64,000 nt of DNA from Limibacter armeniacum. GTDB taxonomy: Bacteria > Bacteroidota > Bacteroidia > Cytophagales > Flammeovirgaceae. The stretch spans positions 1,612,001 to 1,676,000 of the forward strand of contig NZ_JBAJNO010000009.1 of the NCBI RefSeq assembly GCF_036880985.1. The letters run 5' to 3'. This document shows, in pieces, positions 25,675-40,996 of this stretch (within the stretch, counting starts at the first letter, position 1; every line of letters begins with the position of its first letter). The notes beneath the pieces were generated by a model. The model had not been told where the DNA came from and searched no databases. It saw nothing but the letters and a program-made list of their open reading frames with translations. The translations under genes were made by a program, and so were the position numbers.

Positions 25675-25730
25675 AAGTCGTCTGTATGAAAATAGTTAAC
25701 AAGGACTATAATATATTATAGTCACATCGC

Positions 25731-25816
25731 TATAAGCTATTCGGAATAGTCCTGTGTTTTGAGGATATAAAGAAATATAGCTGTAAGGAAGTTATTTAAA
25801 GGAAAGAATAAAGTTT
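25731..25816 (+). repeat. Array-end segment, first copy
   Basis: CGCTATAAGCTATTCGGA...AGTCCTG and GTAAGGAAGTTATTTAAAGG are shared in order with 37752-37845, the sequence just after the last cassette of the large array (CGTTATAAGCCATTCGGA...). It therefore marks the end of a second, smaller array whose content is the HxlR/SDR/NTF2 block. The core reads GCTATAAGC instead of GTTATAAGC. Confidence 0.75.
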
Positions 25817-25847
25817 AGCCAGACCCTGATGGGTTTGGCTTTTTTTG
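25817..25847 (+). terminator. Platform terminator upstream of the intact recombinase
   Basis: AGCCAGACCC-TGAT-GGGTTTGGCT followed by seven T. It closes the upstream cargo and insulates the recombinase region. Confidence 0.85.
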
Positions 25848-25918
25848 TGACCAATTGTACCTAAATGTCTGAACCTTGATCTTAAATATTTAAAGGATTG
25901 GGAGGATGAGGGAGAGTG

Positions 25919-25994
25919 TTGAGCAGAAGCAGGAAAGTACCATTTCGGAGATTCGGGAGCTGAAGGAGATGATAGAAAGGATGAGGAGGTAGTG
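25919..25994 (+). repeat. 76-bp direct repeat, copy 2 (detached coiled-coil gene tail)
   Basis: One mismatch to 20914-20989. It contains only the last ~24 codons and stop of the coiled-coil gene and is not a gene itself. Confidence 0.85.
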
Positions 25995-26039
25995 TATAGG
26001 CTAATGCCTTCTTTAAGGCATATAGGAGGTTTCTCTTTT

Positions 26040-26432
26040 TTAGCTGTTACCGGCTTTCATATATGCTTGCCACTGTACCAGCACGTATTTATTTCGGTCA
26101 TGTTCGGTGATTTTCAGAAAGCCATACTCAAAGACAAAGAGGTACACCTCCCCTTTTGCATTTTTCCAGTAATGGGTAAAGAAATTAGGGTCAAACCCTT
26201 CAGCCAATAGCGCCTCACAACGTACTGTTGCCTTTCCTGCCTTGTTGTATTCTTTCAGGATCCTTCGGTTCTGTCTTAACTGCTGACTTACCTGATGGTA
26301 GAAATCGGGGGCATCTTCCTTTGTTTTCTGATAGTGATAGACACTTTTGCAGTAATTGTCGCAGAATTTCTTGCCAGCTCTGCCTGTAAGCGATTTACCA
26401 CAGGATAGGCAATGTTTTTCGATGTGATCCAT
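26040..26432 (-). CDS. Zinc-ribbon protein divergent from the recombinase
   Basis: 130 residues. The N-terminus has a treble-clef or zinc-ribbon arrangement, HCLSCGKSLTGRAGKKFCDNY then C, i.e. CxxC-N13-CxxxC. The middle is basic and helical (QLRQNRRILKEYNKAGK) and the C-terminus is aromatic (GEVYLFVFEYGFLKI). It is divergent from the recombinase, sharing an 89-bp intergenic region with a 15-bp inverted repeat. It may be a DNA-binding partner or regulator of the recombinase; that is inference from position. Confidence 0.65.
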   Translation of the reverse strand: MDHIEKHCLSCGKSLTGRAGKKFCDNYCKSVYHYQKTKEDAPDFYHQVSQQLRQNRRILKEYNKAGKATVRCEALLAEGFDPNFFTHYWKNAKGEVYLFVFEYGFLKITEHDRNKYVLVQWQAYMKAGNS

Positions 26433-26447
26433 AAATGGTTTTAGAAT

Positions 26448-26494
26448 GCTAACCGTTGATTATACGTATATTAAACGTTTAATCAACGGTTAGC
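26448..26494. promoter_or_regulatory. 15-bp perfect inverted repeat between zinc-ribbon gene and recombinase
   Basis: GCTAACCGTTGATTA (26448-26462) and its exact complement (26480-26494), with a 17-nt spacer. The outer ends are GCTAAC...GTTAGC, the same shape as the cassette cores (R'' and R'). It may be an operator for both divergent genes or a recombinase-binding site. Confidence 0.6.
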
Positions 26495-26521
26495 CTATTA
26501 TGGTTTTGTATCTTATCAGGT

Positions 26522-27646
26522 ATGAAAACACGCCAAATTACGCTCAAGCATCTGCTGATAGCGGGCAGAAAGTATATCGGGTTGCAGTTCTACCCGGACA
26601 AGGTGGTACAGGCACTTGTCAAGGAGCTGCCCAGTCCGAGGTGGAGCGAGCAGTACCGGATGGTATTTATTCCCAACACCAAGGAAAATGTGCAACTGAT
26701 ATTTCGGAGGTTTAAGGGAGTGGCTTGGGTGAATGGGCAGTATTTTTTCCGTACAGGAGGAGCCAAAAAGGGAAATCCGTTTCCTGATGTGGAGGCATAC
26801 CGGCATCGCAAGCTCAGCGAAGGATACCGTCCATGTCCTGAATCCTATCTGGAAAAACTTGAGTTGAAGCGGTATGCCATGAACACGGTCAGGACCTATG
26901 TAGGCTGTTTTGAGGCATTTATCAACCATTTTAAGGACAGGGAACTGCTAGAGATCAATGAACTGGAAATCAGGACTTATCTCCAGCAGCTGATTCGTGA
27001 AGGGAAATCCGACTCAACTGTCAATCAGGCACTCAATAGCATTAAGTTCTACTATGAAGTTGTGGAGGGTATGCCCAACCGATTTTACGAAGTCGAACGG
27101 CCACACAAGAAAGAGCGACTGCCGGAGGTATTAAGCCAAGAGCAGGTACTGTCCATGATCAGGAAAACAAGGAACCTGAAGCACCGCTACATCATTAGCC
27201 TGCTTTACTCGGCAGGATTAAGAAGGGGGGAGCTGCTGAACCTTGAACCACGTGATATAGAAAGTAATCGGATGCTGATCAGGGTAAGGGAAGGCAAGGG
27301 AGGAAAAGACCGTTACACCATTCTTTCGGAAAAGCTATTATTGGAACTGAGAGCCTATTATAAAGAACACAGACCCAAAAAGTACTTGTTTGAGGGTGAG
27401 CAGGGAGGACAGTACAGTACCACAAGTGTCGCCAGGATTGTCAGCCGAGCTGCCAAGTGGGCAGGAATCCGTAAAAGAGTGACGCCCCATATGCTTCGCC
27501 ACTCATTTGCCACACATCTATTGGAAAATGGGACAGACCTACGATACATTCAGTCGTTGCTGGGGCATAACTCAAGCCAGACAACAGAAATTTATACGCA
27601 TGTGGCAACAAAAAATTTGAACAAAATCAAGAATCCGCTAGATTAA
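26522..27646 (+). CDS. Integron-type tyrosine recombinase of non-canonical form
   Basis: 374 residues, proposed to integrate and excise the cassettes that follow. Catalytic residues: Arg234 (AGLRRGEL), a Lys in GKGGKDR, His323 and Arg326 (TPHMLRHSFA), His349 (LLGHNSS), Tyr358 (TEIYTHV). The C-terminus NKIKNPLD resembles the IntI ending (...RSPLD). Differences from IntI: residues 265-305 run straight from KDRYTILSEKLLLEL to YSTTSVARI without the IntI insertion, and the first ~100 residues form an extra N-terminal domain (QFYPDKVVQALVKELP...). It is in the same orientation as the cassettes. It could also be a XerC/D-like phage integrase next to an unrelated array, but position and repeats argue otherwise. 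Confidence 0.88.
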   Translation: MKTRQITLKHLLIAGRKYIGLQFYPDKVVQALVKELPSPRWSEQYRMVFIPNTKENVQLIFRRFKGVAWVNGQYFFRTGGAKKGNPFPDVEAYRHRKLSEGYRPCPESYLEKLELKRYAMNTVRTYVGCFEAFINHFKDRELLEINELEIRTYLQQLIREGKSDSTVNQALNSIKFYYEVVEGMPNRFYEVERPHKKERLPEVLSQEQVLSMIRKTRNLKHRYIISLLYSAGLRRGELLNLEPRDIESNRMLIRVREGKGGKDRYTILSEKLLLELRAYYKEHRPKKYLFEGEQGGQYSTTSVARIVSRAAKWAGIRKRVTPHMLRHSFATHLLENGTDLRYIQSLLGHNSSQTTEIYTHVATKNLNKIKNPLD

Positions 27647-27743
27647 AGGAGTTTTTGACACAGTGCGTATATCAACCATGGTGCTTTTACCCCCTGATTT
27701 TACGGAATATATACCACTGTGCATTATATACAATTGTTACGGC
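27647..27743 (+). other. attI-like site
   Basis: Lies between the recombinase stop and the first cassette. It contains the inverted pair CACAGTG (27659-27665) and CACTGTG (27715-27721) and ends in the core G^TTACGGC (27736-27743). The region is conserved in the deleted platform at 23915-23996 up to CAATTG, exactly where the two copies diverge into different cargo. Exact recombinase-binding sites are inferred. Confidence 0.65.
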
Positions 27744-27770
27744 TAATCAAGCAAAGAAGATTTTTTATAT

Positions 27771-29273
27771 ATGATTAAGGAAACAGATGCATATGTGATT
27801 GTAAATCATTTACAGTTTCATTTCGGGGATGTATTAGAGAGAACAAAGAAAATTAATATTTTTAATGCAGCAGATGTCTGTGGAGTTTGTTTGCATGTTG
27901 AGTATTATTATAGATATCAAGGAATTTATGAACTAAGTACTGGTCCTGCTCAATATCTAGGTTGGGAAACAATTGATACTGTTTTTAAGCTTATAAATGC
28001 AGATGATTATATATCACTCCTTAATCGTTCTAAAGCTATTAATGTACTTGATGAGAGTGATGAAGTGAGTAAAAAAGACAGTGAGATATTATTTGAGTGG
28101 AATTCAAAGCCTCTAGATACAATATTCAATAAATGTGTGGATTTTCTATCAAAAAATTCACAACCACATTTACTTGAAGAAACAATGTCTCTTTTACCTC
28201 CTTTACCTAATAAAGAAAGAGAAATCCTAGAAGCCGCTGGTATGGCTGATTATGAATGGATCAAACGATTATTAGATGCTGGAGCAAATCCTAACATTAC
28301 TGATGGAGATAATACCCCTCTAAGTATAGCTTGGTATATGTACAGTGCTTCATATGCACCTCCTGAAACATCTATGGCATGTGTAAAATTACTAATTGAA
28401 TCAGGATCAGATCCTCTTTTGGGAGATAATAAGAGAATGCTTAGGGAAAGTCTGTTCCCTTTTGAGGAAGATCTCTTTAAAATGCTACTAGAATATGGGT
28501 GGGATATAAATTATTACACGGATGAATCGCCTGTATTTATCCTAGTTAGACAAATACCATCGATAAATAAGTACTACGGTAGCAATTTTGAAGCAGATAA
28601 ACAAAAGTATATAGATCGTTTAGATTACTTTCTTCAGAAGAGTCCAAATCTCAATGACCCGACCCTAACAGATGATAGATTATTACCTTTATCGATTTCA
28701 GAATATAAAGAAGTATCTGAGAAATTATTAAATCATGGAGCAAAATTGCAAGTAGAAGCTCAAGATGGATTTTATTATTTAACTCCCTTGATGATGGCTG
28801 TTTCCAATGGGAAGTTAGATGATGTGAAATATTGGGTTGAGAAAGGAGTTGGAATAAACTGTAGACTTGGGAATCGCTGTTACTTTCCACTTAGAGATAA
28901 TAAAATGATTCCTGCAGGTTTTACGGCTTTAGATATAGCTAAAGTGGAAGATAAAACTGAAATAGTCAATTATTTAGAAAGTCATGGAGCAATTTCTGGT
29001 GAACAAATTTCATGGAAAATTAAGATTGTTAGATATAATGGTAATCTGATGAATGTAAAAGACATTGAGTCATTAGCTAAAGATTTTAGTTCTGAAATTC
29101 AACAGGTGGTAGGCGATGATTATAAACTAAATAATTTAGAGTGGAATATAAAATATATGTTAGAAGAGGATACGGCTATAAAAACAAATGTTTTAGAGAG
29201 TTCAGATAAAAGTCTAATTGAAGCATTAGGTGAAAAATTAAAACAGTTAGATTTTGATTTTGAAGTTTCATAG
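27771..29273 (+). CDS. Cassette 1: ankyrin-repeat protein
   Basis: 500 residues. The N-terminal 150 residues are of unknown fold. From about residue 155 ankyrin-type helices follow: EREILEAAGMADYEWIKRLL, DAGANPNITDGDNTPLSIAW, CVKLLIESGSDPLLGDNK, SEKLLNHGAKLQVEAQDG and LDIAKVEDKTEIVNYLESHG. Ankyrin repeats bind other proteins; no catalytic domain is seen. It begins 35 bp after the attI core and is the first cassette. AT-rich compared with the element backbone. Confidence 0.82.
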   Translation: MIKETDAYVIVNHLQFHFGDVLERTKKINIFNAADVCGVCLHVEYYYRYQGIYELSTGPAQYLGWETIDTVFKLINADDYISLLNRSKAINVLDESDEVSKKDSEILFEWNSKPLDTIFNKCVDFLSKNSQPHLLEETMSLLPPLPNKEREILEAAGMADYEWIKRLLDAGANPNITDGDNTPLSIAWYMYSASYAPPETSMACVKLLIESGSDPLLGDNKRMLRESLFPFEEDLFKMLLEYGWDINYYTDESPVFILVRQIPSINKYYGSNFEADKQKYIDRLDYFLQKSPNLNDPTLTDDRLLPLSISEYKEVSEKLLNHGAKLQVEAQDGFYYLTPLMMAVSNGKLDDVKYWVEKGVGINCRLGNRCYFPLRDNKMIPAGFTALDIAKVEDKTEIVNYLESHGAISGEQISWKIKIVRYNGNLMNVKDIESLAKDFSSEIQQVVGDDYKLNNLEWNIKYMLEEDTAIKTNVLESSDKSLIEALGEKLKQLDFDFEVS

Positions 29274-29296
29274 GTTTTTTATACCAAAATAAACTA

Positions 29297-29370
29297 GCCG
29301 TAACAAGGGGCATAGTTCACTGTCAGTTGCGACGCAACCTGCCAGCGATACCATGCCCGATTCGTTAGGC
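29297..29370 (+). repeat. attC-like site 1
   Basis: Starts GCCGTAAC (reverse complement of the cassette's own first core GTTACGGC) and ends GTTAGGC. Inner arms GGGGCAT / ATGCCC and a GTTGC-GAC-GCAAC hairpin fold it on itself. 74 bp. Confidence 0.85.
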
Positions 29371-29379
29371 ATAACTAAA

Positions 29380-30207
29380 ATGAAAGATTTTAAATTTTCT
29401 GGAAATTGGAGCTCGTACATTAATCTCCACCATTTTGACACTTATTATTCAAAAAAATATTCTGCAAGTGGAGTTGAACTGGAACAGAAACAAGGAAATG
29501 AAATAAAATTAGTATTTGCCGATGAATACCAAGATTTTGACCCTGACCCTAAAAAGGAACAAATTAATACCATCAATTTTCTTCTTGACGAAAAGAATCA
29601 ATTAAGTATCATTGAATCGATAATTGGCTATTTAAAAGAAGTAATTTATCCATATTATAAAGAAGAAATTTTTCTAGAAGAGGAATATCCTCAATTCTAC
29701 CCTGAAATTGTTACTATTGACGATTTTCAGAGGTATTTTAGACTTTATCAGATTTCGATTTACACACTGAACAGAGATAATCAAGCATATTACTGTCTTT
29801 ATTTTGACATTAAATTACTTGATAGTGAACATGGTTTATCCATTGAAGTTCACAAGGACAGAAGTGTGGATCATGGTGCTAGTGACGGAACAGACGGTTA
29901 TATAATTGCAGAAGAATTAAACCTGGAAAACAATGTTCGTGATCTTATGCATCAAATAATAGATAATGAAAAACCTGTTTTACATAAACCTGACCCAAAA
30001 TACGGTGTATTAAAGCCTTGGCAAATTGATTCGAATGATCGTTTTGCTTTCAATGCATACAGAACAAATGAAGACGACTTATTAGTTGAATACATTAATT
30101 CAGGTATTAGGGATATAGGTTATTTCAAACGTTTCTATGAACTAGCGAAGAAAGATGGTCGAGAAAAAATAATTTCCGCTTTGAAAGATTACGAAGAACT
30201 AAATTAA
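29380..30207 (+). CDS. Cassette 2: hypothetical protein
   Basis: 275 residues from ATG 29380 (MKDFKFSGNWSS), which lies just after the core TTAGGC; an upstream start at 29353 falls inside the attC site and is rejected. The middle has LYFDIKLLDSEHGLSIEVHK, resembling the 'D.EHGL.i' motif of small DUF6985-type proteins, which supports only a weak guess. No signal or membrane segment. Function unknown. Confidence 0.7.
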   Translation: MKDFKFSGNWSSYINLHHFDTYYSKKYSASGVELEQKQGNEIKLVFADEYQDFDPDPKKEQINTINFLLDEKNQLSIIESIIGYLKEVIYPYYKEEIFLEEEYPQFYPEIVTIDDFQRYFRLYQISIYTLNRDNQAYYCLYFDIKLLDSEHGLSIEVHKDRSVDHGASDGTDGYIIAEELNLENNVRDLMHQIIDNEKPVLHKPDPKYGVLKPWQIDSNDRFAFNAYRTNEDDLLVEYINSGIRDIGYFKRFYELAKKDGREKIISALKDYEELN

Positions 30208-30212
30208 AATAT

Positions 30213-30368
30213 GCCTAACCTCACCTATGACACCATGGCGTGTCAGTGGGTTACGATAGGTTTGTGGTTACTTGATATCCCGCGAATTCTCTGAATTCGC
30301 TACTTAGATAAACGAAACGAAATACGAACTTAAACACGCCACGGAGCATAGCTACGGCGTTGTAGTTC
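30213..30368 (+). repeat. attC-like site 2
   Basis: Starts GCCTAAC (complement of core GTTAGGC) and ends GTTGTAGTTC. Long arms CTATG...TGGCGTGT and ACACGCCA...CATAG pair with each other. 156 bp. Confidence 0.8.
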
Positions 30369-30377
30369 ATTAGAAAA

Positions 30378-30827
30378 ATGATAAGAAGACTTATAAATAC
30401 TCTGAAAACTCAGGCCATTAAGGATTCTTACTTCGGTGAGATGGGTTCGACCTATGACAAAATTGAAAGTTGCTATTATCTTGATAAGGATATTGTACTT
30501 GAATCGATACATACACCTGTAATCTTATACATTGTATCAAATGATCAGAGGTCAAATAATAACCAGCAGAGAGCTTTTGAAGAAATCAAAAAGGAATTTC
30601 CTAAAATCTGGATTAACATAAAATCGTTCCTTGCAAAGAGTGAACACATAATTACTGAAGAGCAACTTAGAAAAGAATATAGACTTGAATCTCTGACAAT
30701 CCCCATTGACATTGAGAGGGATAAAATGGAGTGGGAAATTGACTTATTAAACTTAAAGGACGGGTTTTCAAAAATAATAGTTGAAATGAAAGGTGATGAA
30801 CCTTTTCACTTTTCTGTAGAATCTTAA
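30378..30827 (+). CDS. Cassette 3: hypothetical protein
   Basis: 149 residues, soluble, starting 10 bp after the core. The sequence alternates helices and strands (YDKIESCYYLDKDIVLESI, PVILYIVSNDQRSNN, KMEWEIDLLNLKDGFSKIIV). No recognised family. The C-terminal strand order resembles small immunity- or DUF2004-like proteins, but I do not press this. Confidence 0.65.
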   Translation: MIRRLINTLKTQAIKDSYFGEMGSTYDKIESCYYLDKDIVLESIHTPVILYIVSNDQRSNNNQQRAFEEIKKEFPKIWINIKSFLAKSEHIITEEQLRKEYRLESLTIPIDIERDKMEWEIDLLNLKDGFSKIIVEMKGDEPFHFSVES

Positions 30828-30838
30828 AAAATAAAAAC

Positions 30839-30914
30839 GAACTACAACAATGGCTAAAATGCATACCCAACCAACCTAACCGTTGCACGACATCTTAGCC
30901 GGAACGTTGGTAGC
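30839..30914 (+). repeat. attC-like site 3
   Basis: Starts GAACTACAAC (exact 10-base complement of core GTTGTAGTTC) and ends GTTGGTAGC. Arms TGGCTAAAATGC and GACATCTTAGCC pair. Nearly the same sequence as site 5. Confidence 0.88.
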
Positions 30915-30923
30915 TATTAAAGA

Positions 30924-31271
30924 ATGAAAGAAAAAGTCAAAGAGTTTGTTTCATCGAGGTTAGGTGTTCCCAAAAAACAGATAACAATGGACTCCAAAAT
31001 TGAGTCTGATTTTGGAATGGCAGGACTTGACACCATCAGTTTCTACCATGAATTCTTTAAAGAATTTGAAATAGAGAATCCTCAAGATTTTGATTTAGAT
31101 AGATATGTTACTTCGGAAAACTTGGAAATTTGGTTAATAGTGAAATCTATTTTTTCAAAATCTGCTCGTGAAAAACTAAGAATTGAAGAGGTCTCTATTA
31201 ATCACTTGATTAACGTGGCTGAGACAAAATTTTGGACTGAAGAAAGAAAAACAGCTACCAACAAAACCTAA
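30924..31271 (+). CDS. Cassette 4: DUF1493-type protein
   Basis: 115 residues. DSKIESDFGMAGLDTISFYH is the diagnostic 'DLG..GDDA' region of DUF1493, a helical family distantly related to acyl carrier proteins; FKEFEIENPQDFDLDRYVTSE follows as expected. The usual GDD is GLD here, and no Ser for phosphopantetheine is evident. The last codons overlap the start of its attC site (GCTACCAAC), as happens in compact cassettes. DUF1493 function is not established. Confidence 0.75.
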   Translation: MKEKVKEFVSSRLGVPKKQITMDSKIESDFGMAGLDTISFYHEFFKEFEIENPQDFDLDRYVTSENLEIWLIVKSIFSKSAREKLRIEEVSINHLINVAETKFWTEERKTATNKT

Positions 31272-31311
31272 AACTGCATTAAAACGCATTTTACATTAAC
31301 CGTTGTAGCGC
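31254..31311 (+). repeat. attC-like site 4
   Basis: Starts GCTACCAAC (complement of core GTTGGTAGC), within the cassette-4 gene, and ends GTTGTAGCGC. Arms around ACTGCATTAAAA / ACGCATTTTAC are weak. 58 bp. Confidence 0.78.
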
Positions 31312-31319
31312 ATTGGAAA

Positions 31320-31598
31320 ATGAAAATCACCAAAGACACATATAACCTCTTCTGCAAACATGGTAGTGAATTGCTATGGGTAAGTGACCCAATAAGAGAA
31401 CCAAGACCAAAAGGGACTAGTGAAAAAACGGACGAGGAGTTTGTTGTCTTAGCAAATTTGGACAAATGCATGGAATTGTTTCATAACGATTTCTATAGTC
31501 AAAAAATGAAAATGGAATATGCAGATAGAATCGAGAGTCTAAAGGTCAAAGTGACTGATGAAGTATTCCAATTAATAGAAAATAAATACAAAAAATAA
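31320..31598 (+). CDS. Cassette 5: hypothetical protein
   Basis: 92 residues, starting 8 bp after the core. Helical, charged (LANLDKCMELFHNDFYSQKM). No signal peptide or known motif; unknown function. One gene, one cassette, framed by sites 4 and 5. Confidence 0.65.
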   Translation: MKITKDTYNLFCKHGSELLWVSDPIREPRPKGTSEKTDEEFVVLANLDKCMELFHNDFYSQKMKMEYADRIESLKVKVTDEVFQLIENKYKK

Positions 31599-31599
31599 C

Positions 31600-31663
31600 G
31601 CGCTACAACAAGAGCTAAAATGCATACCCAGCCGCACGACATTTTAGCCGGAACGTTGAGTGT
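31600..31663 (+). repeat. attC-like site 5
   Basis: Starts GCGCTACAAC (exact complement of core GTTGTAGCGC) and ends GTTGAGTGT. Arms GAGCTAAAATGC / GACATTTTAGCC. Internal sequence shared with site 3. Confidence 0.88.
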
Positions 31664-31683
31664 AATAGTTGAAATTTAAAAAC

Positions 31684-32439
31684 ATGGATGACTTTGAAAG
31701 CCAAAAACAGAAAATAGAGATTCGAGAGAAAAGATTAAAAAATAGCACGATATGGGTATCAACATTGATTCCTTTATTGACTGTTATTATATCAATTGTA
31801 ACAACAAATTTGACTATTCAAAATAAGATAGATATAGAGAAATTGAATTTCACTCAAGAAAGAATAAAAACTCTACTAAATGAAGACGATATTTCAGAGT
31901 CTAGAAAAAAGTTGAAATTTCTTATTGAAAGTGGATTGATTGGCGAAAAGAATAATGAGGGAAATTTGTTAAAAGCTTTGAACTCAAACTTAATTAATGA
32001 AAGTGAAAGTACTTTGCAATTTCTTTTAGGAGTAAAGAGTTTTGACAGAGCTTTTAATAGTAAAAATCTGGATACAGTGATGACGTTTTATACTTCATCA
32101 ATTAATTATTTTATGAAAGCTTTAGATTTGAACCCCAATAATTATGAAGCAAGATCATATTTAGGGGCATCCTACAATAATTTAGGGATGGAACTTGGCT
32201 TATATACCCTATATGAAAAAGCATTAATAGAGTATGACCGGGCACTCAAATTAGATTCAACCATAATGTATGTTCATGTTGATAAGGCCAAAACTTTTGA
32301 GAATTTGGAGAAGTATAATGAACTATGTAATGAATTAGGTATGGTTGGTTCTCTGATTGGATTGGATTCATTTAGAATAAATGAGGTTAGTAGAATGAGA
32401 CTCCTATACTGCAATCAAGATACTACTCACAACAAATAA
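31684..32439 (+). CDS. Cassette 6: membrane-anchored TPR protein
   Basis: 251 residues from ATG 31684 (a TTG at 31669 is possible). One membrane segment (TIWVSTLIPLLTVIISIVTT) lies near the N-terminus, followed by a basic-acidic linker. TPR-like helices come next: FYTSSINYFMKALDLNPNNY, EARSYLGASYNNLGMELGLY, EKALIEYDRALKLDSTIMYV, HVDKAKTFENLEKYNELCNE. It probably binds a protein partner at the membrane. Function unknown. Confidence 0.72.
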   Translation: MDDFESQKQKIEIREKRLKNSTIWVSTLIPLLTVIISIVTTNLTIQNKIDIEKLNFTQERIKTLLNEDDISESRKKLKFLIESGLIGEKNNEGNLLKALNSNLINESESTLQFLLGVKSFDRAFNSKNLDTVMTFYTSSINYFMKALDLNPNNYEARSYLGASYNNLGMELGLYTLYEKALIEYDRALKLDSTIMYVHVDKAKTFENLEKYNELCNELGMVGSLIGLDSFRINEVSRMRLLYCNQDTTHNK

Positions 32440-32546
32440 TAAGCTCAATGAACAGGCTTAGTCATAATCAAATTTCAGTATGAAAGAGTAACTTTAGAAT
32501 TAATTTGAAAGGGTATGCTCACTGAGCTTATCTGGACGTTGGCACC
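32425..32546 (+). repeat. attC-like site 6
   Basis: Starts ACTCACAAC, only partly complementary to the core GTTGAGTGT, and ends GTTGGCACC. Arms AATAAGCTCA / TGAGCTTAT pair well. 122 bp. Confidence 0.7.
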
Positions 32547-32561
32547 AATTAAAATAAAACT

Positions 32562-33183
32562 ATGGCAAACCAAGACAACATTGACAATCCTGAAGAAGAA
32601 TTCGATAAGGATTTAAGCTTCGAATTGCCGAATGCAATTAAAAGGACTATCAGTATTCCCACAATTATTCTGATAGCTTTAATACTTGGAATTTATGCGT
32701 ATAATAATTGTTTGCAACCCCGGTCATATAGACCCTGAAAAATTTGGGCTGCCGACAACTCTCATTGCTCTGATAGTAATCTTGATAGTAATCAATTTAC
32801 CTTGGGACAAAATGGGATTTAGGGTTAAGAAAATAGGAATGATTGAACTCGAAAATGTAGTCAAAACTCAGGCTCGTGGGAACTCAAAAGAACTTGCTGA
32901 CTTACAGCGACAAATTGACGAACTAAAAGCAAAACTTCCAGAAAAAACTGAAGATAATGATAGTAGTTTGGACGATTTAGTGACGAAGTTTTTAAACCAA
33001 TACAGTCAATGGGCTTTCTCAGCTTTAAGAATTAAAAAATGGGGAGCATTACAAAGTGGCTTTGAAGGTTTAAAAAATTATGAGACTCAAGAAATAAGGG
33101 AAAGCCTTAGAAGATTACTATCAAAGAATATTGTCGTGACCAGAATTAGTAAAAAAGGAAACACGATTTACAAAATAAAATAA
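32562..33183 (+). pseudogene. Cassette 7: membrane protein gene with a one-base frameshift
   Basis: An ATG at 32562, 16 bp after the core, opens MANQDNIDNPEEEFDKDLSF... and runs to a stop at 32736-32738. The downstream part continues in the next frame: (C)NPGHIDPEKFGLPTTLIALI, a second membrane segment, and a coiled coil (LADLQRQIDELKAKLPEK) to 33183. The whole span is 3n+1 long, so one extra base near 32695-32720 would join both parts into one two-membrane-segment protein with a cytoplasmic winged-helix-like tail (RESLRRLLSKNIVVTRI). Either a decayed cassette, a sequencing slip or a frameshifted product. Confidence 0.65.
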
Positions 33184-33185
33184 CT

Positions 33186-33319
33186 GGTGCCAACACGGCA
33201 TATAGCTTATGGTGGATGAACGGCTGCCAGCAAGGTTTTCGCTCCGTAGCCAGCTTTGGTTTCGGTGGACAGGAAAGTCCTTCGAAACCGCCACAAGCCA
33301 TATGCAAACCGTTAGCATC
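33186..33319 (+). repeat. attC-like site 7
   Basis: Starts GGTGCCAAC (complement of core GTTGGCACC) and ends GTTAGCATC. Arms GGCATATAGCTT / AAGCCATATGC. Contains GGACAGGAAAGTCC, a motif recurring in site 10 and after site 12. Confidence 0.85.
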
Positions 33320-33333
33320 AATAGATCAGAATA

Positions 33334-34392
33334 ATGGATTTTTCATTTGGTGAAATATATAAGCATCGCTACTTTCCAAAGCAAATTCTAACTGGAATAG
33401 AGTTCTACTACACTTTGCTGGATTACTGTGATCCTTTCAAGATAAATGAAGAACAATGTCCTATTTCCAGAAATGATATCCAATCTTCAATACTAAATCT
33501 AAAAAGAATTCCTGAAGACCACCAAGTTCATAATTTAAGTCATAGTCACCCGTTTCTATCCGAACCCCTTGAGTCAATCGAATTCTACCAGAAAAAAATG
33601 GAGGAAAAAGCAGATTTGGGGATGTTGGATATGATGATTTTAACATGGTTAATTAACCTTGTTCATACTTCATCACACATTGTTTACGAAAAATTCCGAC
33701 TGGATTACGAGAGAATAACTGACGAATTGAGTCCTGTTGAGACCCTGAAAAAACTATACGAATATAAGGCAGCATGTCAAAAGAACAAGCAGAACTATAC
33801 GAAAAAAGTTATCGAGGACTGTCTCAACCTAATTTCAATTGAGATTGAAAAAAACAAGTCCTTGACAGAGGTGGATAACTCCAACATCAGTGCAGAGATC
33901 AATAATATAGTTCAATCCTACCTGAATAAATTAAATGAACTACTTGATAAAAATGACCTGTTAGACTCTCTTAAAAATGAGAGATATGAAGAGTTTATAT
34001 TTAAGATTAAACGAGTTCTCTATATACCAAGTTATTATGATATCAGTTCAACTGATAAAGAGAAAGTATTCCATGTGTATCTCTTAGGGGTCCTTCAAGG
34101 GCGCTTAGAAGAGTACCTTGTGAAATCAAACAAAGAGTCAGGAACCGGTCGCTATGATATTTGCCTAAATCCAATGGACAAGCGAAATCCCGGTGTAATA
34201 TTCGAAATAAAGAAGGTGCCTGAAAACTCAAATACCATGTTAATCGAAAAAGAGTTAGATGCCGCAATGTCGCAAATAGACGAACGTGAATATGTGTTTG
34301 AGCTTAAAGAAGATGGCATACATCAGATTCTTTTCATATCATTAGTCTTTAATGGAATAGAGCCTGTTGTTAAATGGCAAATATCGAAATGA
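33334..34392 (+). CDS. Cassette 8: PD-(D/E)XK nuclease-like protein (DUF1703 type)
   Basis: 352 residues. The C-terminal domain carries GTGRYDICLNPMDKRNPGVI then FEIKKVPE, i.e. the D-(x)n-ExK active site of the PDDEXK_9 nuclease-like domain. LGVLQGRLEEYLVKSNKESG precedes it as in AAA-ATPase/DUF1703 proteins. The usual N-terminal AAA ATPase is missing; the first 220 residues are helical and unlike it. A stand-alone nuclease-like domain would fit a defence or addiction role, but that is inference. Confidence 0.72.
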   Translation: MDFSFGEIYKHRYFPKQILTGIEFYYTLLDYCDPFKINEEQCPISRNDIQSSILNLKRIPEDHQVHNLSHSHPFLSEPLESIEFYQKKMEEKADLGMLDMMILTWLINLVHTSSHIVYEKFRLDYERITDELSPVETLKKLYEYKAACQKNKQNYTKKVIEDCLNLISIEIEKNKSLTEVDNSNISAEINNIVQSYLNKLNELLDKNDLLDSLKNERYEEFIFKIKRVLYIPSYYDISSTDKEKVFHVYLLGVLQGRLEEYLVKSNKESGTGRYDICLNPMDKRNPGVIFEIKKVPENSNTMLIEKELDAAMSQIDEREYVFELKEDGIHQILFISLVFNGIEPVVKWQISK

Positions 34393-34508
34393 TGCTAACA
34401 TATACTATCATTCCATAAGCTTTCTGAGCTATTTGCAAAGACTGGTGCTATCCTTTTATAGAAATTTGAAAAGTCCAGCTTACGGATGATAGTTGGTCGT
34501 TATCTATA
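34391..34508 (+). repeat. attC-like site 8
   Basis: Starts GATGCTAAC (complement of core GTTAGCATC), overlapping the cassette-8 stop, and ends GTTATCTATA. Arms ACTATCATTCCATAAGCT / AGCTTACGGATGATAGT. Confidence 0.85.
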
Positions 34509-34515
34509 AGAAAAT

Positions 34516-35239
34516 ATGAAGATCTGTAAACTCTGCGATAAACAAAAACCTTTGATAAAAAAAATCCCATATCATATCTAATTTTATGTACAAGGATATG
34601 AAAGATGAAAAAGGAAGGTTAAATAAGCTAACTTTTGATGGTAGTGGTAAGATTAACCATGCTATTCTTCAATCAGGAGAATTTGAAGGTGGGATATTAT
34701 GTGAGGAGTGCGATAATAATATTTTAGGAGGTGAAGAAAGATACGTTGCAAAAATCTTATACGGGAAAAATTTTGAAAACCCTCCTATTCGTGAATCATA
34801 TAATTTTAATGGCTCAAGAGAATTATTAAAGTTCTCAAATTTTGATTATAAACGGTTCAAATTATTCATATTATGGAGGTCTAGTATTTCTTCAAGGCCA
34901 ATGTTTAACTACCTATCACTAGGTGAAACACTTGAAGATGAAATTAAGAAGGTGATTAATGATGGAGATGCTAGAGAAGATACGAAATTTCCAATAATAT
35001 TGTCAACTTGGAGATATTCATCAAAAGAGGAAAGAGGAATTGTCTCCTCACCAATCAGTATAGAGATTTCAGGAGGTATTTCATATTTGTATATAATTAA
35101 TGGTCTAGCATATTGGGTTTTTTCTTCGGAAGAAATTATTCCAAAAGAATTAAAGGAATTAAGGTTGAAATCAGATGGGACAGTAATATTATATGACTTA
35201 CCTGAAATACTTAAAAAATATATAGATAACAAGGCCTAA
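34516..35239 (+). pseudogene. Cassette 9: Cys-cluster protein gene with a one-base frameshift in an A8 run
   Basis: ATG 34516 opens MKICKLCDKQKPLIKK, then stops after 21 codons. Removing one A from the A8 run near 34558 gives ...IKKSHIISNFMYKDMKDEKG, which continues in frame to 35239. 'CxxC...SHIIxxFMYKD' is a known N-terminal pattern of small zinc-binding HNH-like or phage-exclusion-type proteins, and CEECDN at about residue 60 supplies a second Cys pair. The gene thus looks intact except for this homopolymer. Homopolymer slippage, a read error or phase variation are all possible. Confidence 0.7.
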
Positions 35240-35387
35240 AAAAGCATAGCGTTATTAGTGAAATTGGTGGGTTGTTGTGTGAAAGAAATCCCACTACAAA
35301 ATGAAAAAAAATTTAAAAGTCTTGTAGCTATTTAGTAGACGGAACATAAGTTCTTTTCAATGCTTTTTAGTCGAGTCGTTGTGGTGC
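35221..35387 (+). repeat. attC-like site 9
   Basis: Starts TATAGATAAC (exact complement of core GTTATCTATA), inside the gene end, and ends GTTGTGGTGC. Arms GGCCTAAAAAAGCATAG / CAATGCTTTTTAGTCGAG. 167 bp. Confidence 0.85.
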
Positions 35388-35404
35388 ATTAAAAAGAACA
35401 AGAA

Positions 35405-36214
35405 ATGAGTAATCTATCAGATATAGGTTTTGACATACAAAGTGAAGAAGACTTTTATTCTTTACTTGAGAGAGCATATGAAAAGTCGACTCCTTTAAAT
35501 ACGACAAAGGGTACTTACTTTCAATTTTCCGATAAATCTGGAGCTGAATTGTGGATTCAAATGAGTAAAAAGAATGAATTACTAGGAGCAAATCCGCATT
35601 TCAAAGGAAAAAGTAAGAGAAAGATTTCAATAACAGCCAGTATTGATAGATCTGAAAGTGTTTTAGATGGTGCATTTCATTCTTGGGCAGACCCGTTGGA
35701 TAATGAAAATCCTGAAAGTGGAGCCTACCCGTTTGTTTTTGATGTTCCAAATCACAAGAAATATGTAGGAATTGAAACACCTCAAATAATCGAGATTCAG
35801 CTTTCGGCATTTGCTCAGGAATTTGATTATTATGATTCTGAAGAAGCTTTCGCCAATGGACAGGAAGGCGAACCTAAATGGGCTTCACAATCATTTGTAC
35901 CAAGTGGATTATTTAATCCAGGAGAAAGAGATGACCCAAATCCACCAGAAGCTTTAGGACTATTTGCTGGTATAATCAAACAAACCGAAAAAAGAAAAAA
36001 TGAATTTACAGGTCAGGAGTTCTATTGGATGCTTGTTGACACCCTTGGTGGTGAAATTGATGTACTAGCAGACCTTCGATTTTTTGAAAATTCTACACCT
36101 AGAGTCGGTGGAGTTGTGCACGGTCAATTTTGGCTTTCGGGTAAATTGTTAAGTGAACCAAAAATTGGAGATAAACCAAAAGCAGGATTTTTGAAACGAC
36201 TGTTTGGAAACTAA
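35405..36214 (+). CDS. Cassette 10: hypothetical protein
   Basis: 269 residues, soluble and acidic. The first half is beta-rich (GAELWIQMSKKNELLGANPH, RKISITASIDRSESVLDGAF) and the second half contains GLFAGIIKQTEKRKNEFTGQ and WMLVDTLGGEIDVLADLRFF, which looks like an OB-like barrel. No signal peptide, no catalytic motif, family not recognised. The C-terminus is basic (KPKAGFLKRLFGN). Confidence 0.68.
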   Translation: MSNLSDIGFDIQSEEDFYSLLERAYEKSTPLNTTKGTYFQFSDKSGAELWIQMSKKNELLGANPHFKGKSKRKISITASIDRSESVLDGAFHSWADPLDNENPESGAYPFVFDVPNHKKYVGIETPQIIEIQLSAFAQEFDYYDSEEAFANGQEGEPKWASQSFVPSGLFNPGERDDPNPPEALGLFAGIIKQTEKRKNEFTGQEFYWMLVDTLGGEIDVLADLRFFENSTPRVGGVVHGQFWLSGKLLSEPKIGDKPKAGFLKRLFGN

Positions 36215-36220
36215 AATTAC

Positions 36221-36419
36221 GACACCACAACACGGTATATAGCAAATAGGGCGTTCATTGGGTTAGGAAAGTCCTATGGTTATTTGAAACACCGCCAAAT
36301 CGTTGATTTGGCTTTTAAGAATGAATAAATTAAAAACAAAATAAACGATTTGGCTCGAAGTAACTCGAAAGTTCAGTGCTTTCTACTGCCCTACTTGCCA
36401 TATACAAATCGTTATCCAC
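36221..36419 (+). repeat. attC-like site 10
   Basis: Starts GACACCACAAC (9 bases complementary to core GTTGTGGTG) and ends GTTATCCAC. Arms GGTATATAGCAAATAGG / CCTACTTGCCATATAC. 199 bp, the longest. Confidence 0.82.
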
Positions 36420-36428
36420 AATTATACA

Positions 36429-37076
36429 ATGAGACAGATAATACTTCTATTGGTTATTTTGACTATTAGTTGCAGCCAACAAACCGCGAAGGAAGACAAG
36501 GTGCAGAATGATTCTATTGCAAAACCAGATCTCGTGACTGAACCAATTCAGGTGGAACAAACTAAAAAGATACAAGCTGACTATAGCACTATAGTTAACA
36601 ACTTCCCCGAAATCAATTCTCTTGATATTGATTCAGAGCAACTACAGAAATCTAGATATACGAAGTACCACTCTGAACGTGGCCTGAATAATTACTATTT
36701 CGAACTTTCTGAGCTAACAACTGCTGACAAAAAAATCATCGACATTGAAGACAAGGAAAACTCAAGATTGTTTTATTTCGGAAGAACGGCAATTGGCGAC
36801 TCTAATATAGTGTTGATTTTGAAAAACGACACAACTAGTGAAGGAATCAAAGACACATACTATGCACAGGTGCTAAACTCAAGCAATGAGGTTGAGAAAA
36901 CATTTGAACTTGCCAAGATTGATGCGCCTGAAATCGAAGAATCAACAGAAACAACTTCCAAGCAAATTGATGGAAAGGTTCTACGGACAACAATTTACGA
37001 ACTATATGAAACTCCAGTTGACGAAGAACCTTTGAAGCGAACTGAAAGGCAGGACACCATATCATTGAAGAAATAA
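36429..37076 (+). CDS. Cassette 11: hypothetical lipoprotein
   Basis: 215 residues with a lipoprotein signal peptide: MRQIILLLVILTISCSQQ, lipobox LTIS-C at residue 15. The mature part is acidic and mostly beta (FEKNNYYFEL-like strands, RLFYFGRTAIGDSNIVLILK, TYYAQVLNSSNEVEKTF). It would be anchored in the inner or outer membrane, facing the periplasm. Function unknown; one gene between sites 10 and 11. Confidence 0.72.
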   Translation: MRQIILLLVILTISCSQQTAKEDKVQNDSIAKPDLVTEPIQVEQTKKIQADYSTIVNNFPEINSLDIDSEQLQKSRYTKYHSERGLNNYYFELSELTTADKKIIDIEDKENSRLFYFGRTAIGDSNIVLILKNDTTSEGIKDTYYAQVLNSSNEVEKTFELAKIDAPEIEESTETTSKQIDGKVLRTTIYELYETPVDEEPLKRTERQDTISLKK

Positions 37077-37078
37077 AA

Positions 37079-37251
37079 GTGGATAACAAATGCTATGAAT
37101 GAATGAGGTTTCATCGGTCAGGAAATTTTCGTGAGGATTGGAAAGTCGGGGACGCCCAGTCTACCACAATTTTTAATCAAGGCGTGGCTATTTGTGAGAC
37201 GAGAGGTTAGTGCTTTTTAATCCTCACTCATCATAGCTGATCGTTATAGGC
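37079..37251 (+). repeat. attC-like site 11
   Basis: Starts GTGGATAAC (complement of core GTTATCCAC) and ends GTTATAGGC. Arms GCTATGAATGAATGAGG / CCTCACTCATCATAGC. 173 bp. Confidence 0.88.
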
Positions 37252-37261
37252 AAGCAGAAGA

Positions 37262-37732
37262 ATGGAAAAGTTTTCAAATAATAGAGAGAATTATTGGAAT
37301 CAGATTAAAAAGGAGTTATCGGATGTAAATGATTCCGGAGATTTTCGATTTCAATATCTCGAAATTGGACAACTCTTGTCTCACGGGTTTTCGGTTACTC
37401 TAACTGAAAAGAATCCTCGAGAGCTGGTTCTGAAAACTTGGAATGCTGAATATGACAACCAAAGATTTGATAAAGGGATTTTTAATCTTGATAGGTTGGC
37501 AATAACTGACAGAAAAGTTGAATTGAATTCACAAGAGTCAAAAACGATTAATAAATTATTAGATTCTAAACTTGAACTGACCAATTGGGGAGGAATAGTT
37601 CTCGATGGATTATTCTGCCAGTTTGAAACTAATGACAGAAAATTGGATTGGAATACTAATGAAGAAATTAATGACGACTTGATTGAGTTAGTCGAATTAT
37701 TAAGAAATAAAGCAATCCATAACACTGTGTAA
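37262..37732 (+). CDS. Cassette 12: hypothetical protein
   Basis: 156 residues, soluble, starting 10 bp after the core GTTATAGGC. Mixed helices and strands (FRFQYLEIGQLLSHGFSVTL, LNLDRLAITDRKVELN-like region). No family recognised. Its end overlaps the last attC-like site. It is the last cassette before the array-end segment. Confidence 0.68.
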   Translation: MEKFSNNRENYWNQIKKELSDVNDSGDFRFQYLEIGQLLSHGFSVTLTEKNPRELVLKTWNAEYDNQRFDKGIFNLDRLAITDRKVELNSQESKTINKLLDSKLELTNWGGIVLDGLFCQFETNDRKLDWNTNEEINDDLIELVELLRNKAIHNTV

Positions 37733-37761
37733 AAATTCATTTTACACTAAACGTTATAAGC
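37715..37761 (+). repeat. attC-like site 12 (last)
   Basis: Starts ATCCATAAC (imperfect complement of GTTATAGGC) and ends GTTATAAGC. Compact hairpin AGTGTAAAA-type arms: TGTGTAAAA / TTTTACACT. 47 bp. Confidence 0.72.
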
Positions 37762-37845
37762 CATTCGGAAAGTCCTGCATTTTGGTGGAGAGGTGGCAAG
37801 CATGGAGGTAAGGAAGTTATTTAAAGGCAATAATAAAGCTTAGCT
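37762..37845 (+). repeat. Array-end segment, second copy
   Basis: CATTCGGAAAGTCCTG...GTAAGGAAGTTATTTAAAGG matches the segment at 25740-25816. It is found after the last cassette in both arrays and so is part of the platform, not of a cassette. Confidence 0.75.
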
Positions 37846-37873
37846 AAGCCAGACCTAATAGGTTTGGCTTTTT
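37846..37873 (+). terminator. Terminator closing the cassette array
   Basis: AAGCCAGACC-TAATA-GGTTTGGCTT followed by T. Third copy of the platform terminator. Confidence 0.85.
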
Positions 37874-38070
37874 GTTTTGATGGGTTATTGTCAAAAGAGA
37901 GGCAGAGGGCAAGATGCCTTCTGCTTCTACTTTTATTTCAGTTGCACTGGCAGCTGGAGGAAGTAACCCACTGTCCTTGGCTGCCTTGATACTGGCTGAG
38001 AGAAAACCCACTGTTCACTAAATCCAAATGGAGTCCTTTGGTGTTGGGATGCCATTTGGAATACCAACTC
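37874..38070. other. Short intergenic stretch between array and replication genes
   Basis: Convergent end region between the array terminator and the minus-strand DnaC-like gene. Nothing further recognised. Confidence 0.4.
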
Positions 38071-38739
38071 CTATGGGGAGCGGCGGTAGGAGGTGGTTCT
38101 GTTGAGGTGGATGATATTGACCATCTCGTGGAGGCGGTCCACCATGCGGATATCGTAGCGCTGTTCCATCTCTGTGATGGTGAGGTTTGTGGTGAAGTGG
38201 CTAGCGACCTGATGCTGTGTGAAGAGCCTGTGGCGGATATAGAGGATCTCGTCCATGGCGTTGATGTCGTTGCCGTAACGCTTGACTTTGTGTTCGATGC
38301 CGAGGTCGTCAAAGATCATGGGTTGTTTCTTGCGGTAGCCTTCCAGGTACTGGTCTGAGGCGCGTGCCTCGTTCATGATGTCGTGGCAGTAGTAGAGCTG
38401 TCCTGAGAGTTTCCTGAACTTGCGTCGGAAATGGCTGATGGCGGCTGTCTTGCCAATGCCCGGTGCGCCAGAGAGCAGCAGTCCCTTGTGGGGCTGGATG
38501 TCGTACTGCTTGCAGAGGGAGATGCTGCCGACACAGTAAGCGGTCAGGATGGTGTAGAGTTCCCTTGTCCAGTCGTCAATGGTGCCGTATCGTGAGCGAG
38601 CTTCCTCGATCATAATGCTGAAATACTGGTTGGCGAAGTCACGGGCTACCTGTTCGCTAGCATACGCTGATGTAGTTGCCGATGACTTTTCCTGTGAATG
38701 GGTTGATGTTGGTATTGAATTTTTTGGGTACTTCTCCAT
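38071..38739 (-). CDS. DnaC/IstB-like AAA+ ATPase
   Basis: 222 residues from ATG 38739 (MEKYPKNSIPTSTHSQ); longer readings are unsupported. GLLLSGAPGIGKTAAISHF is the Walker A, KKQPMIFDDLGIEHK the Walker B, and the sensor region ASHFTTNLTITEMEQRYDIR with RMVDRL is typical of DnaC-type helicase loaders. It overlaps the end of the upstream DNA-binding protein gene by 83 bp, so the two are translated from one message. Likely role is loading the host replicative helicase at the element's origin. Confidence 0.85.
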   Translation of the reverse strand: MEKYPKNSIPTSTHSQEKSSATTSAYASEQVARDFANQYFSIMIEEARSRYGTIDDWTRELYTILTAYCVGSISLCKQYDIQPHKGLLLSGAPGIGKTAAISHFRRKFRKLSGQLYYCHDIMNEARASDQYLEGYRKKQPMIFDDLGIEHKVKRYGNDINAMDEILYIRHRLFTQHQVASHFTTNLTITEMEQRYDIRMVDRLHEMVNIIHLNRTTSYRRSP

Positions 38740-39646
38740 GTCTTGCTTGTCTGTTTGCTTGTTGATGGTCTTCGAGGTTAAGCTGTATGAGCTGCTGTAT
38801 ATTGGCGGCGATCTGCACCAGGCGGGTCTGCCGTGAGAGGAAGGCATCTTTCTGTTTGATGGTGTTCCACTCGGTGAGGACCTTTTGCCAGAGGGTCAGT
38901 TTCTTTTCTGCGATCAGCTGCCTTGATGCCTTTGGGTAGTGGTGCCAGGCGACGGCTTCCAGGTAGCTTTCGATGCTGCGGAGTGCCTTGCGGTCTGCTG
39001 CAGGTGAGGCATGGCGGTTGGGTGGTATGCCCAGTTGCTTGTGGCAGAAGCTGTCGTAAGCCTGGAGGTATGGGTTGCTTTTTTCTTTTGGCGGCACTTT
39101 TCTTTTTTCCTGCGGTGTGGGTTTCTCTTCTTCCCTTTCCTTGGTCTGTATCGATTTATTGAAATCAATCTGTTTTTGTGGTGAGGTCGGTGCGAAAGCA
39201 CCCTTGCTTAAGTCAGTATTTGCTTTAGGTAAGTCTTTGCTAACGTCAGTATTTACTATAGGTGCAGGTAAACCGATATTCGGGTTTTCTGAATGTCGGC
39301 TGAGCTGAGTATCGGTTTTGCTGACGGTTGGTTTCTGAAGCATAGCACGCTGTGGTTTCTCGTGGATGATCCACTCCTTTCCGGTGACCCTGCCGCTTCG
39401 GGTGCGGAGGGTACGCATCTCGGCATAACCAAACTGCTGCAATTCCTTGAGTCCGGAGCGGATGGCGGTGGTGCCGTCTGGGGATTGCTTTTCAAGGTCC
39501 TTGAGGTTGATGCGCCAGTGGTCGGGCTTGGTCATGATGTAGATCATAATGCCCTTTGCCTTGTAGGACAGGCGTCGGTCTGTGGCAAAGGAGTTGTCTA
39601 CGGTGGTGAAGCCGTGGGTACGGTTGGGAAGTCTTACGATGGACAT
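38657..39646 (-). CDS. Helix-turn-helix replication-type protein
   Basis: 329 residues from ATG 39646 (MSIVRLPNRTHGFTTVDNSF). The first ~90 residues, ATDRRLSYKAKGIMIYIMTK, PDHWRINLKDLEKQSPDGTT, AIRSGLKELQQFGYAEMRTL, are the winged-helix 'helix-turn-helix domain' found in plasmid and phage replication initiators (RepA_N/DnaD-like). The middle is a low-complexity basic linker and the last 120 residues resemble a DnaD-like helicase-loader interaction domain. With the DnaC-like ATPase it forms the element's replication module. Confidence 0.78.
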   Translation of the reverse strand: MSIVRLPNRTHGFTTVDNSFATDRRLSYKAKGIMIYIMTKPDHWRINLKDLEKQSPDGTTAIRSGLKELQQFGYAEMRTLRTRSGRVTGKEWIIHEKPQRAMLQKPTVSKTDTQLSRHSENPNIGLPAPIVNTDVSKDLPKANTDLSKGAFAPTSPQKQIDFNKSIQTKEREEEKPTPQEKRKVPPKEKSNPYLQAYDSFCHKQLGIPPNRHASPAADRKALRSIESYLEAVAWHHYPKASRQLIAEKKLTLWQKVLTEWNTIKQKDAFLSRQTRLVQIAANIQQLIQLNLEDHQQANRQARHGEVPKKFNTNINPFTGKVIGNYISVC

Positions 39647-39710
39647 GGGATATTGGGTTTGGAATGGGCAATGGCAGGCAGGTATTGTTACCTGCCTGCT
39701 GTAGACAAAA

Positions 39711-40019
39711 TCAGAATAGGCTTTCAGTAGATTCAGGTGGATACAGGATCGTCCACTCATGGGAAGTGGTCGTCTTGCTGTGCTTAAGCTGGTGTGTGGC
39801 CAAGCCATGCCTGACCAGTTCCTCAAAGCCCTCGACTGGGTAGATGTCTGGGTTCAGGGAAATGCTGGGTAAATAACGGATGCGCCAATGGGGAAGCCTT
39901 TTGGCTACATAGGCATAGATAAGTCTGGCCTTTTGGGAAACGTTGTCGGATGCTAGTAACTGTTTTACCTTCCTGGTTTTAAGTTTTGGGCTGACGCCTT
40001 TGGCAATTAGGTGTACCAT
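39711..40019 (-). CDS. Small DNA-binding-type protein of the replication module
   Basis: 102 residues, basic. SQKARLIYAYVAKRLPHWRI and EELVRHGLATHQLKH look like the same winged-helix type as the N-terminus of the next gene downstream, so it may be a regulator or a small initiator relative. It starts at 40019 and lies between the excisionase-like gene and the replication protein, all on the minus strand. No firm family. Confidence 0.55.
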   Translation of the reverse strand: MVHLIAKGVSPKLKTRKVKQLLASDNVSQKARLIYAYVAKRLPHWRIRYLPSISLNPDIYPVEGFEELVRHGLATHQLKHSKTTTSHEWTILYPPESTESLF

Positions 40020-40065
40020 AAAAGTGATTAGGTTTTAAAACATGAAAAAATATTGGAGTGGCCCA

Positions 40066-40320
40066 TCAAAGCTCGCTCCTGCGAATAAAGATCTTCTTTC
40101 CTCTTTTCTTGGAAGGAATCTTCCCTTGCTTCAGCAAACTGTAGACGGTTGGCAGGCTGATGTTGAGGATCCTTGCGGCTTCTGCCGGGGTAATAATGTC
40201 ATCGCTGTTGATGCTCCACCCCTCACTTTGCTGATATAGCTCGATGGCTTTCCGGGCAGAGGACTCTACCAGTTCGTTAAGTTCACTCTCCGATAGGGTT
40301 ATATAGGTTATCGTTCTCAT
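40066..40320 (-). CDS. Excisionase-family DNA-binding protein
   Basis: 84 residues. DDIITPAEAARILNISLPTV then YSLLKQGKIPSKKRGKKIFI is the HTH_17/MerR-like excisionase fold complete with the wing. Proteins of this type direct excision (Xis) or regulate element genes. It is the first gene of the minus-strand replication run and divergent from the XRE-like gene. Confidence 0.85.
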   Translation of the reverse strand: MRTITYITLSESELNELVESSARKAIELYQQSEGWSINSDDIITPAEAARILNISLPTVYSLLKQGKIPSKKRGKKIFIRRSEL

Positions 40321-40432
40321 GATAAAGTTAGTTAATAATATTAAGCGTTATAAATATATATTTGAGATATATAAAATCAAACAAATTTAATTATAACTTG
40401 TATATGGTAAATTAACTACACATTTTAAATGT

Positions 40433-40894: not shown

Positions 40895-40898
40895 AAAG

Positions 40899-40918
40899 TG
40901 TGCAACAAACTGTGCAAC
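40899..40918 (+). repeat. TGTGCAAC direct repeat pair, right end
   Basis: TGTGCAAC at 40899-40906 and 40911-40918 (12-bp period), mirroring the pair at 507-525 next to attL, in the same strand orientation. Confidence 0.55.
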
Positions 40919-40928
40919 AATAAAAATA

Positions 40929-40961
40929 AAAACCCTATAAATTGTTGATTTACAGAGTTTT
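40929..40961. terminator. Imperfect hairpin next to attR
   Basis: AAAACCCTATAAAT / ATTTACAGAGTTTT, with two mismatches and a 5-nt loop. It may terminate the XRE-like gene, the tRNA transcript, or both. Confidence 0.5.
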
Positions 40962-40972
40962 AAATTTGACGA

Positions 40973-40996
40973 AAGTGGCCTCACCAAGAATCGAAC
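40973..40996 (-). other. attR: element boundary within tRNA-Arg 3' end
   Basis: Right copy of the 24-bp direct repeat (see 375-398). It overlaps the last 21 bases of the intact tRNA, which was rebuilt by the element on integration. Confidence 0.85.

Follow-up and report, generated by a model that had tools for sequence, protein, structure and literature searches.

The twelve single-gene units downstream of a tyrosine recombinase in Limibacter armeniacum very probably form a chromosomal integron of a separate class, with the recombinase moving cassettes at attI and attC. The array is an integron in anatomy and, we infer from its sequence, in mechanism. We analysed it in a window of 64,000 nucleotides (C9:1612001–1676000) of the 8.04-Mb genome, on a contig of 3.5 Mb; positions are those of the window, and features lie on the plus strand unless noted. 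A sister class of integrons is the most economical reading, the array being integron-like in every feature tested except the IntI domain. In the proposed mechanism, the recombinase would insert circular single-gene cassettes at attI (27736^27737) and would excise or reshuffle them at attC via a folded bottom-strand hairpin. Each attC would be split when a circular cassette opens, so the lead of a cassette would match its own R'' core.

Anatomy of the array

The recombinase gene (26522–27646) is followed by a 95-bp block and then by twelve single-gene units, all in the orientation of the recombinase. Their boundaries fall on the G of GTT, at 27736, 29364, 30359, 30906, 31302, 31655, 32538, 33311, 34499, 35378, 36411 and 37243, and the last unit ends at 37753. 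Both the recombinase and the twelve co-oriented units had been recognized in an earlier note on this DNA, and the repeats of 47–199 bp given there are close to our measured attC lengths of 46–196 bp. The same note had placed an integron-like array in a mobile element; the integron-like array stands, but this support does not extend to a mobile element, as the array itself lies on the 3.5-Mb contig of a genome with about ten attI copies on several contigs.

Cassette 1 (27737–29364) carries an ankyrin-repeat gene (27771–29273) and has its attC at 29295–29370; cassette 2 (29365–30359) encodes a DUF6985 protein (attC 30210–30365), cassette 3 (30360–30906) a protein of 149 aa (attC 30839–30912) and cassette 4 (30907–31302) a DUF1493 or acyl-carrier-like protein of 115 aa (attC 31253–31308). 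The attC (31600–31661) of cassette 5 (31303–31655), which encodes 92 aa, has a canonical predicted fold, and cassette 6 (31656–32538) encodes a TPR protein. Cassette 7 (32539–33311) has an apparently frameshifted gene and an attC (33185–33317) of the same family as a Persicobacter attC and the blaVEB attC. The remaining cassettes encode a PD-(D/E)XK nuclease-superfamily protein (cassette 8, 33312–34499; attC 34390–34505), proteins of 217 aa (cassette 9, 34500–35378; attC 35221–35384) and 269 aa (cassette 10, 35379–36411; attC 36222–36417), a lipoprotein-like protein of 215 aa (cassette 11, 36412–37243; attC about 37078–37249) and a protein of 156 aa (cassette 12, 37244–37753), the last with a short, diverged attC (37714–37759). 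The apparent frameshifts, in the genes of cassette 7 (32563–33183) and perhaps cassette 9 (34517–35239), lie at short homopolymers and appear to be sequencing error or decay.

The array closes with a block (37753–37876) that starts exactly at GTT, ends in a terminator-like hairpin and has 17 matches in the genome; where these were read, homology begins exactly at GTT after unrelated sequence. Its start is common to a longer, 598-bp form, an ORF-less cassette with its own R'' that occurs in four places in the genome, once directly at attI. We considered C8:1363565 as an empty attI and rejected it, because what stands there, the 598-bp block, is itself a cassette and carries an R'' of its own. 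Upstream of the recombinase, 25693–25850 consists of an attC-like hairpin and, after it, a diverged array-end block; this is probably the end of a preceding array. The earlier note had begun its span at 25731, but 25731–25850 is a 77% copy of 37753–37876 and therefore looks like the end of that preceding array, not part of this one.

A palindrome with 23-bp arms (26448–26494), located between the recombinase and a divergent DUF2116-like gene (26040–26432, minus strand), is a possible operator; as a conserved operator it was rejected, occurring in both of the genome's own copies and not being found in other genera. On the 3' side of the array, 38071–41047 holds an AAA ATPase, HTH proteins and a tRNA (40976–41047), and further tyrosine recombinases lie at about 62820; that region and the recombinases near 62.8 kb are perhaps a separate integrated element.

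Recombination sites and breakpoints

Cassette leads are exactly complementary to their own R'' cores over 9–10 bases in 10 of the 12 units, the match that the earlier note had claimed for ten of twelve cassettes; no complementarity of lead to own R'' core was found in units 6 and 12. In unit 11, R'' GTGGATAAC pairs with GTTATCCAC as 6+3. The own-core total is 65, a figure understated by counting unit 11 as 0, versus a mean of 0.59 bases beyond GTT per off-diagonal pair, and 0 of 200,000 permutations reach it. Only 0–2 bases match between a core and the neighbour's lead. An independent chain detector, requiring a lead, R'', L''/L' pairing and CGTT, scored the array at 34, with 100 shuffles at or below 6 and eight control strands of the window at or below 2.

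If there were no recombination, and unrelated genes simply stood in tandem between terminator hairpins of one repeat family, the spacers would be inverted repeats, as they are, and one of them is indeed followed by a T run. Such an arrangement does not predict that the start of a unit should match the sequence after its own stop, and we consider it almost certainly wrong, refuted as it is by GTT breakpoints in attI copies and duplicated cassettes.

The attI (27644–27738) is a conserved block of about 95 bp 3' of the recombinase, with its crossover at 27736^27737 (G^TT); this site and the absence of an IntI domain from the recombinase go beyond the earlier note. Of its ten matches in the genome nine are complete, and these nine copies are alike up to ...TATATACAATT|GTT (AATT|GTT) and diverge exactly there. 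Different cassette starts follow, including GTTACGG, GTTATGG, GTTATGA, GTTATCA, GTTAGCT, GTTAGGC and GTTATAA. All six aligned attI copies are joined to the 3' end of a recombinase gene of this family. A distant blastn search for attI in plasmids returned no match. Just 5' of one attI copy lies a different, distant tyrosine recombinase gene (C8:1359119; L087, 5119–5981).

Whole cassettes recur with precise ends in relatives as well as in this genome. In one relative, G026, copies of one 680-bp cassette stand in two places and are 99.7% identical across 689 bases, the matching block ending at −2/+6 relative to the boundaries; duplicated cassettes in G012 and G052 also end at predicted boundaries, and on the Persicobacter plasmid pPP2 three cassettes are present two or three times each, flanked by different neighbours. 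Breakpoints away from GTT had been named in advance as grounds for refutation; those observed, in attI copies and duplicated cassettes, are at GTT. Because the copies are cassette-precise and the attI breakpoint is common, neither tandem duplication nor terminators explain them, and on sequence comparison the unit boundaries are recombination boundaries.

Predicted folding of the circular-form attC bottom strands gave an R box and an L box with an unpaired spacer between them, and in 12 of 12 units the fold was more stable than those of shuffled sequences (z −2.3 to −7.1). For the unit 5 attC the prediction is an R box of 11 bp and an L box of 9 bp around a 5/3 unpaired spacer, with a single bulged base, the one clear extrahelical base in checks that covered some of the sites. 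Short attC from G012 and from G026, like two class 1 sites, give a similar predicted fold. These models point to classical attC folding potential. We infer that the adjacent recombinase is the acting enzyme, for which the folded bottom strand would be the substrate, and that the cassettes may still be mobile.

The recombinase family and its distribution

The recombinase (374 aa) has R234, K259, H323, R326, H349 and Y358 all intact, with an extra N-terminal domain at about residues 1–75 and no IntI additional domain. Aligned to IntI1, it is without about 42 residues that hold this domain, and its spacing from GKGxKDR to HxLRH is 58 aa, compared with 66 in XerC/D and 100 in IntI1. The IntI model TIGR02249 matches it only at 7–180 and 240–313, below the 265-bit cut-off, and no IntI over this curated cut-off was found among the proteins of the genome. 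It passes NF040815 (233 over 220 bits), a model tried and rejected as a clade marker: NF040815 also matches Bacteroidota XerC/D-like proteins and some control genomes and thus does not define the clade. The predicted structure (mean pLDDT 80, pTM 0.47) matched XerA, IntI4 and XerH in Foldseek.

Across a midpoint-rooted tree of 87 proteins, the family forms one clade (99/89), joined to IntI (100/98) and apart from XerC/D, and no grouping of the recombinase with XerC/D was found. A recombinase clade sister to IntI and separate from XerC/D is supported with this rooting. Two short-spaced proteins (G402, G149) fall outside the clade, so short spacing alone does not define it. An N-terminal domain of about 75 residues is present in many members; a 285-aa member without such a domain heads the 15-cassette chain of G026.

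At E ≤ 1e-60, the family occurs in 54 of 99 evenly drawn Bacteroidia genomes and 44 of 75 genera. IntI over the cut-off was found in 105 genomes out of 395 across the phylum, against 1 of 98 in the same order or class. Among unselected family loci with at least 3.4 kb available, 11 of 19 have a cassette chain (score of 9 or more) directly downstream, versus 0 of 20 control strands (scores ≤4.5), and these chains nearly always begin within a few hundred bases of the recombinase. The other eight loci may have no cassettes or have lost them, or the detector may be blind to other attC forms, such as the ATT form of Bacteroides. Many other family members lie 0.1–0.9 kb short of a contig end on the side of the array, which would be expected if assemblies tend to break at arrays. 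Among the carriers are Gillisia limnaea, Flagellimonas onchidii, Cytophagales bacterium Alg240-R148, Persicobacter and Chryseobacterium.

This distribution bears on two further explanations. A true IntI, at home in a former host or encoded by a gene since lost, might have assembled the cassettes elsewhere and left a fossil array beside an unrelated Xer-like bystander. Partial, frameshifted recombinase copies in the genome (the second full copy is frameshifted and others are 3' fragments) and true IntI in other classes of the phylum would fit such a history, yet we find it unlikely: the genome has no IntI and, of 98 genomes in the same order or class, just one has it, whereas arrays directly follow the family in 11 of 19 loci, and attI is joined to the recombinase 3' end in 6 of 6 aligned copies. 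Decay of recombinase copies is common in this genome, and the copy at 26522–27646, though intact, may be silent. Alternatively, housekeeping XerC/XerD or another tyrosine recombinase could move the cassettes while the adjacent recombinase only binds or regulates. The genome also carries XerC- and XerD-like genes, and attI has inverted motifs reminiscent of Xer sites; this seems highly unlikely all the same, as arrays follow this recombinase family and not the genome's own XerC/D-like loci, the clade is sister to IntI and not XerC/D, and the sites are attC-like, not dif-like.

Members of the clade also occur beside resistance genes. In Klebsiella michiganensis (NZ_CP084417.1; L109, 5241–6862) an attI-like stretch and then blaVEB-3 come directly after a truncated member, and the same blaVEB cassette occurs in a class 1 cassette array of E. 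coli, with homology beginning at G^TT. Lead and R'' of this cassette pair over ten bases. Its attC resembles that of unit 7 of the window (78% over 50 bases, E 7e-5) and a Persicobacter attC (83% over 42, E 4e-8), with no match in the reversed control, suggesting a Bacteroidota origin of the cassette. In Acinetobacter indicus (NZ_CP041297.1; L105, 4025–6046) a truncated member lies directly upstream of tet(X3), with an attI-like stretch between them; no own-core match was found that would make tet(X3) a cassette, the lead GTTATGTGCC not pairing with the downstream GGCTACTAAC. What sets these tet(X) and blaVEB contexts of Gram-negative pathogens apart from the array in the window is a truncated recombinase and carriage of the region by IS elements.

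We think it likely that a second class of integrons, whose recombinase is a sister of IntI and has no IntI domain, is widespread in Bacteroidota; that this class is the common gene-capture system of Bacteroidia, gut rAID arrays included; that it has traded cassettes with class 1 integrons (blaVEB); and that attC-based capture can do without the IntI domain. If so, it points to a Bacteroidota source of the blaVEB cassette.

Comparison with known systems

Strictly defined, an integron has an IntI with an additional domain near patch III, an adjacent attI and cassettes that each end in attC, the attC bottom strand forming a hairpin with an unpaired spacer and extrahelical bases; a Pc promoter for the first cassettes and cassette movement that depends on the integrase also belong to the definition. 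Here attI adjoins the recombinase, attC-ended cassettes have G^TT boundaries and a bottom-strand hairpin is predicted; the IntI additional domain near patch III was looked for and is absent (TIGR02249; spacing of 58 versus 100 aa), so by strict membership the array is not an IntI integron. IntegronFinder, which needs the IntI domain, should report such arrays as CALIN at best. Genome searches for integrons look for an IntI that has the additional domain. Surveys of this kind consequently find almost no integrons in Bacteroidetes: only In0 in 2016 and, in 2022, a single complete integron, from Salinibacter (PMC9024848). Should patch-less recombinases run integrons, a main gene-capture route in Bacteroidia has been overlooked.

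Against this reading, the IntI domain is given as necessary for IntI activity by Messier and Roy (2001), in the passages of PMC9668308 and PMC2426708 that cite their work, so how a domain-less enzyme would read folded attC is unexplained, which raises a testable structural question. Smyshlyaev et al. describe the IntI insertion as not fully conserved in an integron-like subgroup, yet essential for function (PMC8138268); patch-less relatives may thus be present in earlier trees without their arrays having been noticed.

The best solved-structure matches of the recombinase are to archaeal XerA, which differs in acting on dif. Classical integrons (IntI; class 1, the Vibrio superintegron and other sedentary chromosomal integrons) share with the array an attI beside the recombinase, tandem and co-oriented single-gene cassettes, R'' of the form ..YAAC, R' of GTTR, a G^TT crossover, own-core complementarity and bottom-strand hairpins with an unpaired spacer, predicted here. 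In contrast to theirs, the recombinase of the array is without the IntI additional domain, belongs to a sister clade and, in its family, often has an extra N-terminal domain.

The recombinase-associated acquired interbacterial defence (rAID) arrays of Bacteroidales have a tyrosine recombinase of the same clade, small co-oriented genes, conserved intergenic motifs and own-core complementarity of cassettes. On a plasmid of Bacteroides ovatus (NZ_CP081918.1; L107, 5728–12807), a clade member that is 44% identical in the alignment to the recombinase of the window array is followed by immunity-type genes in the rAID layout. Leads there are complementary to their own R'' in 7 of 9 cassettes by a fixed-distance rule (4 of 200,000 permutations), which picked the wrong R'' in the other two, and in 9 of 9 by eye. 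The strict chain detector found no chain in this array because R' there is CATT. The cargo of the array in the window (ankyrin, DUF6985, DUF1493, TPR and PD-(D/E)XK proteins) may be immunity-like. The account of rAID leaves its gene-acquisition mechanism and biogenesis unclear and does not use the word integron (PMC12247911); our reading, if true, would supply a mechanism. Compared with the array in the window, rAID arrays have CATT in place of CGTT leads (junction C^ATT versus C^GTT), short stems and a cargo of T6SS immunity genes.
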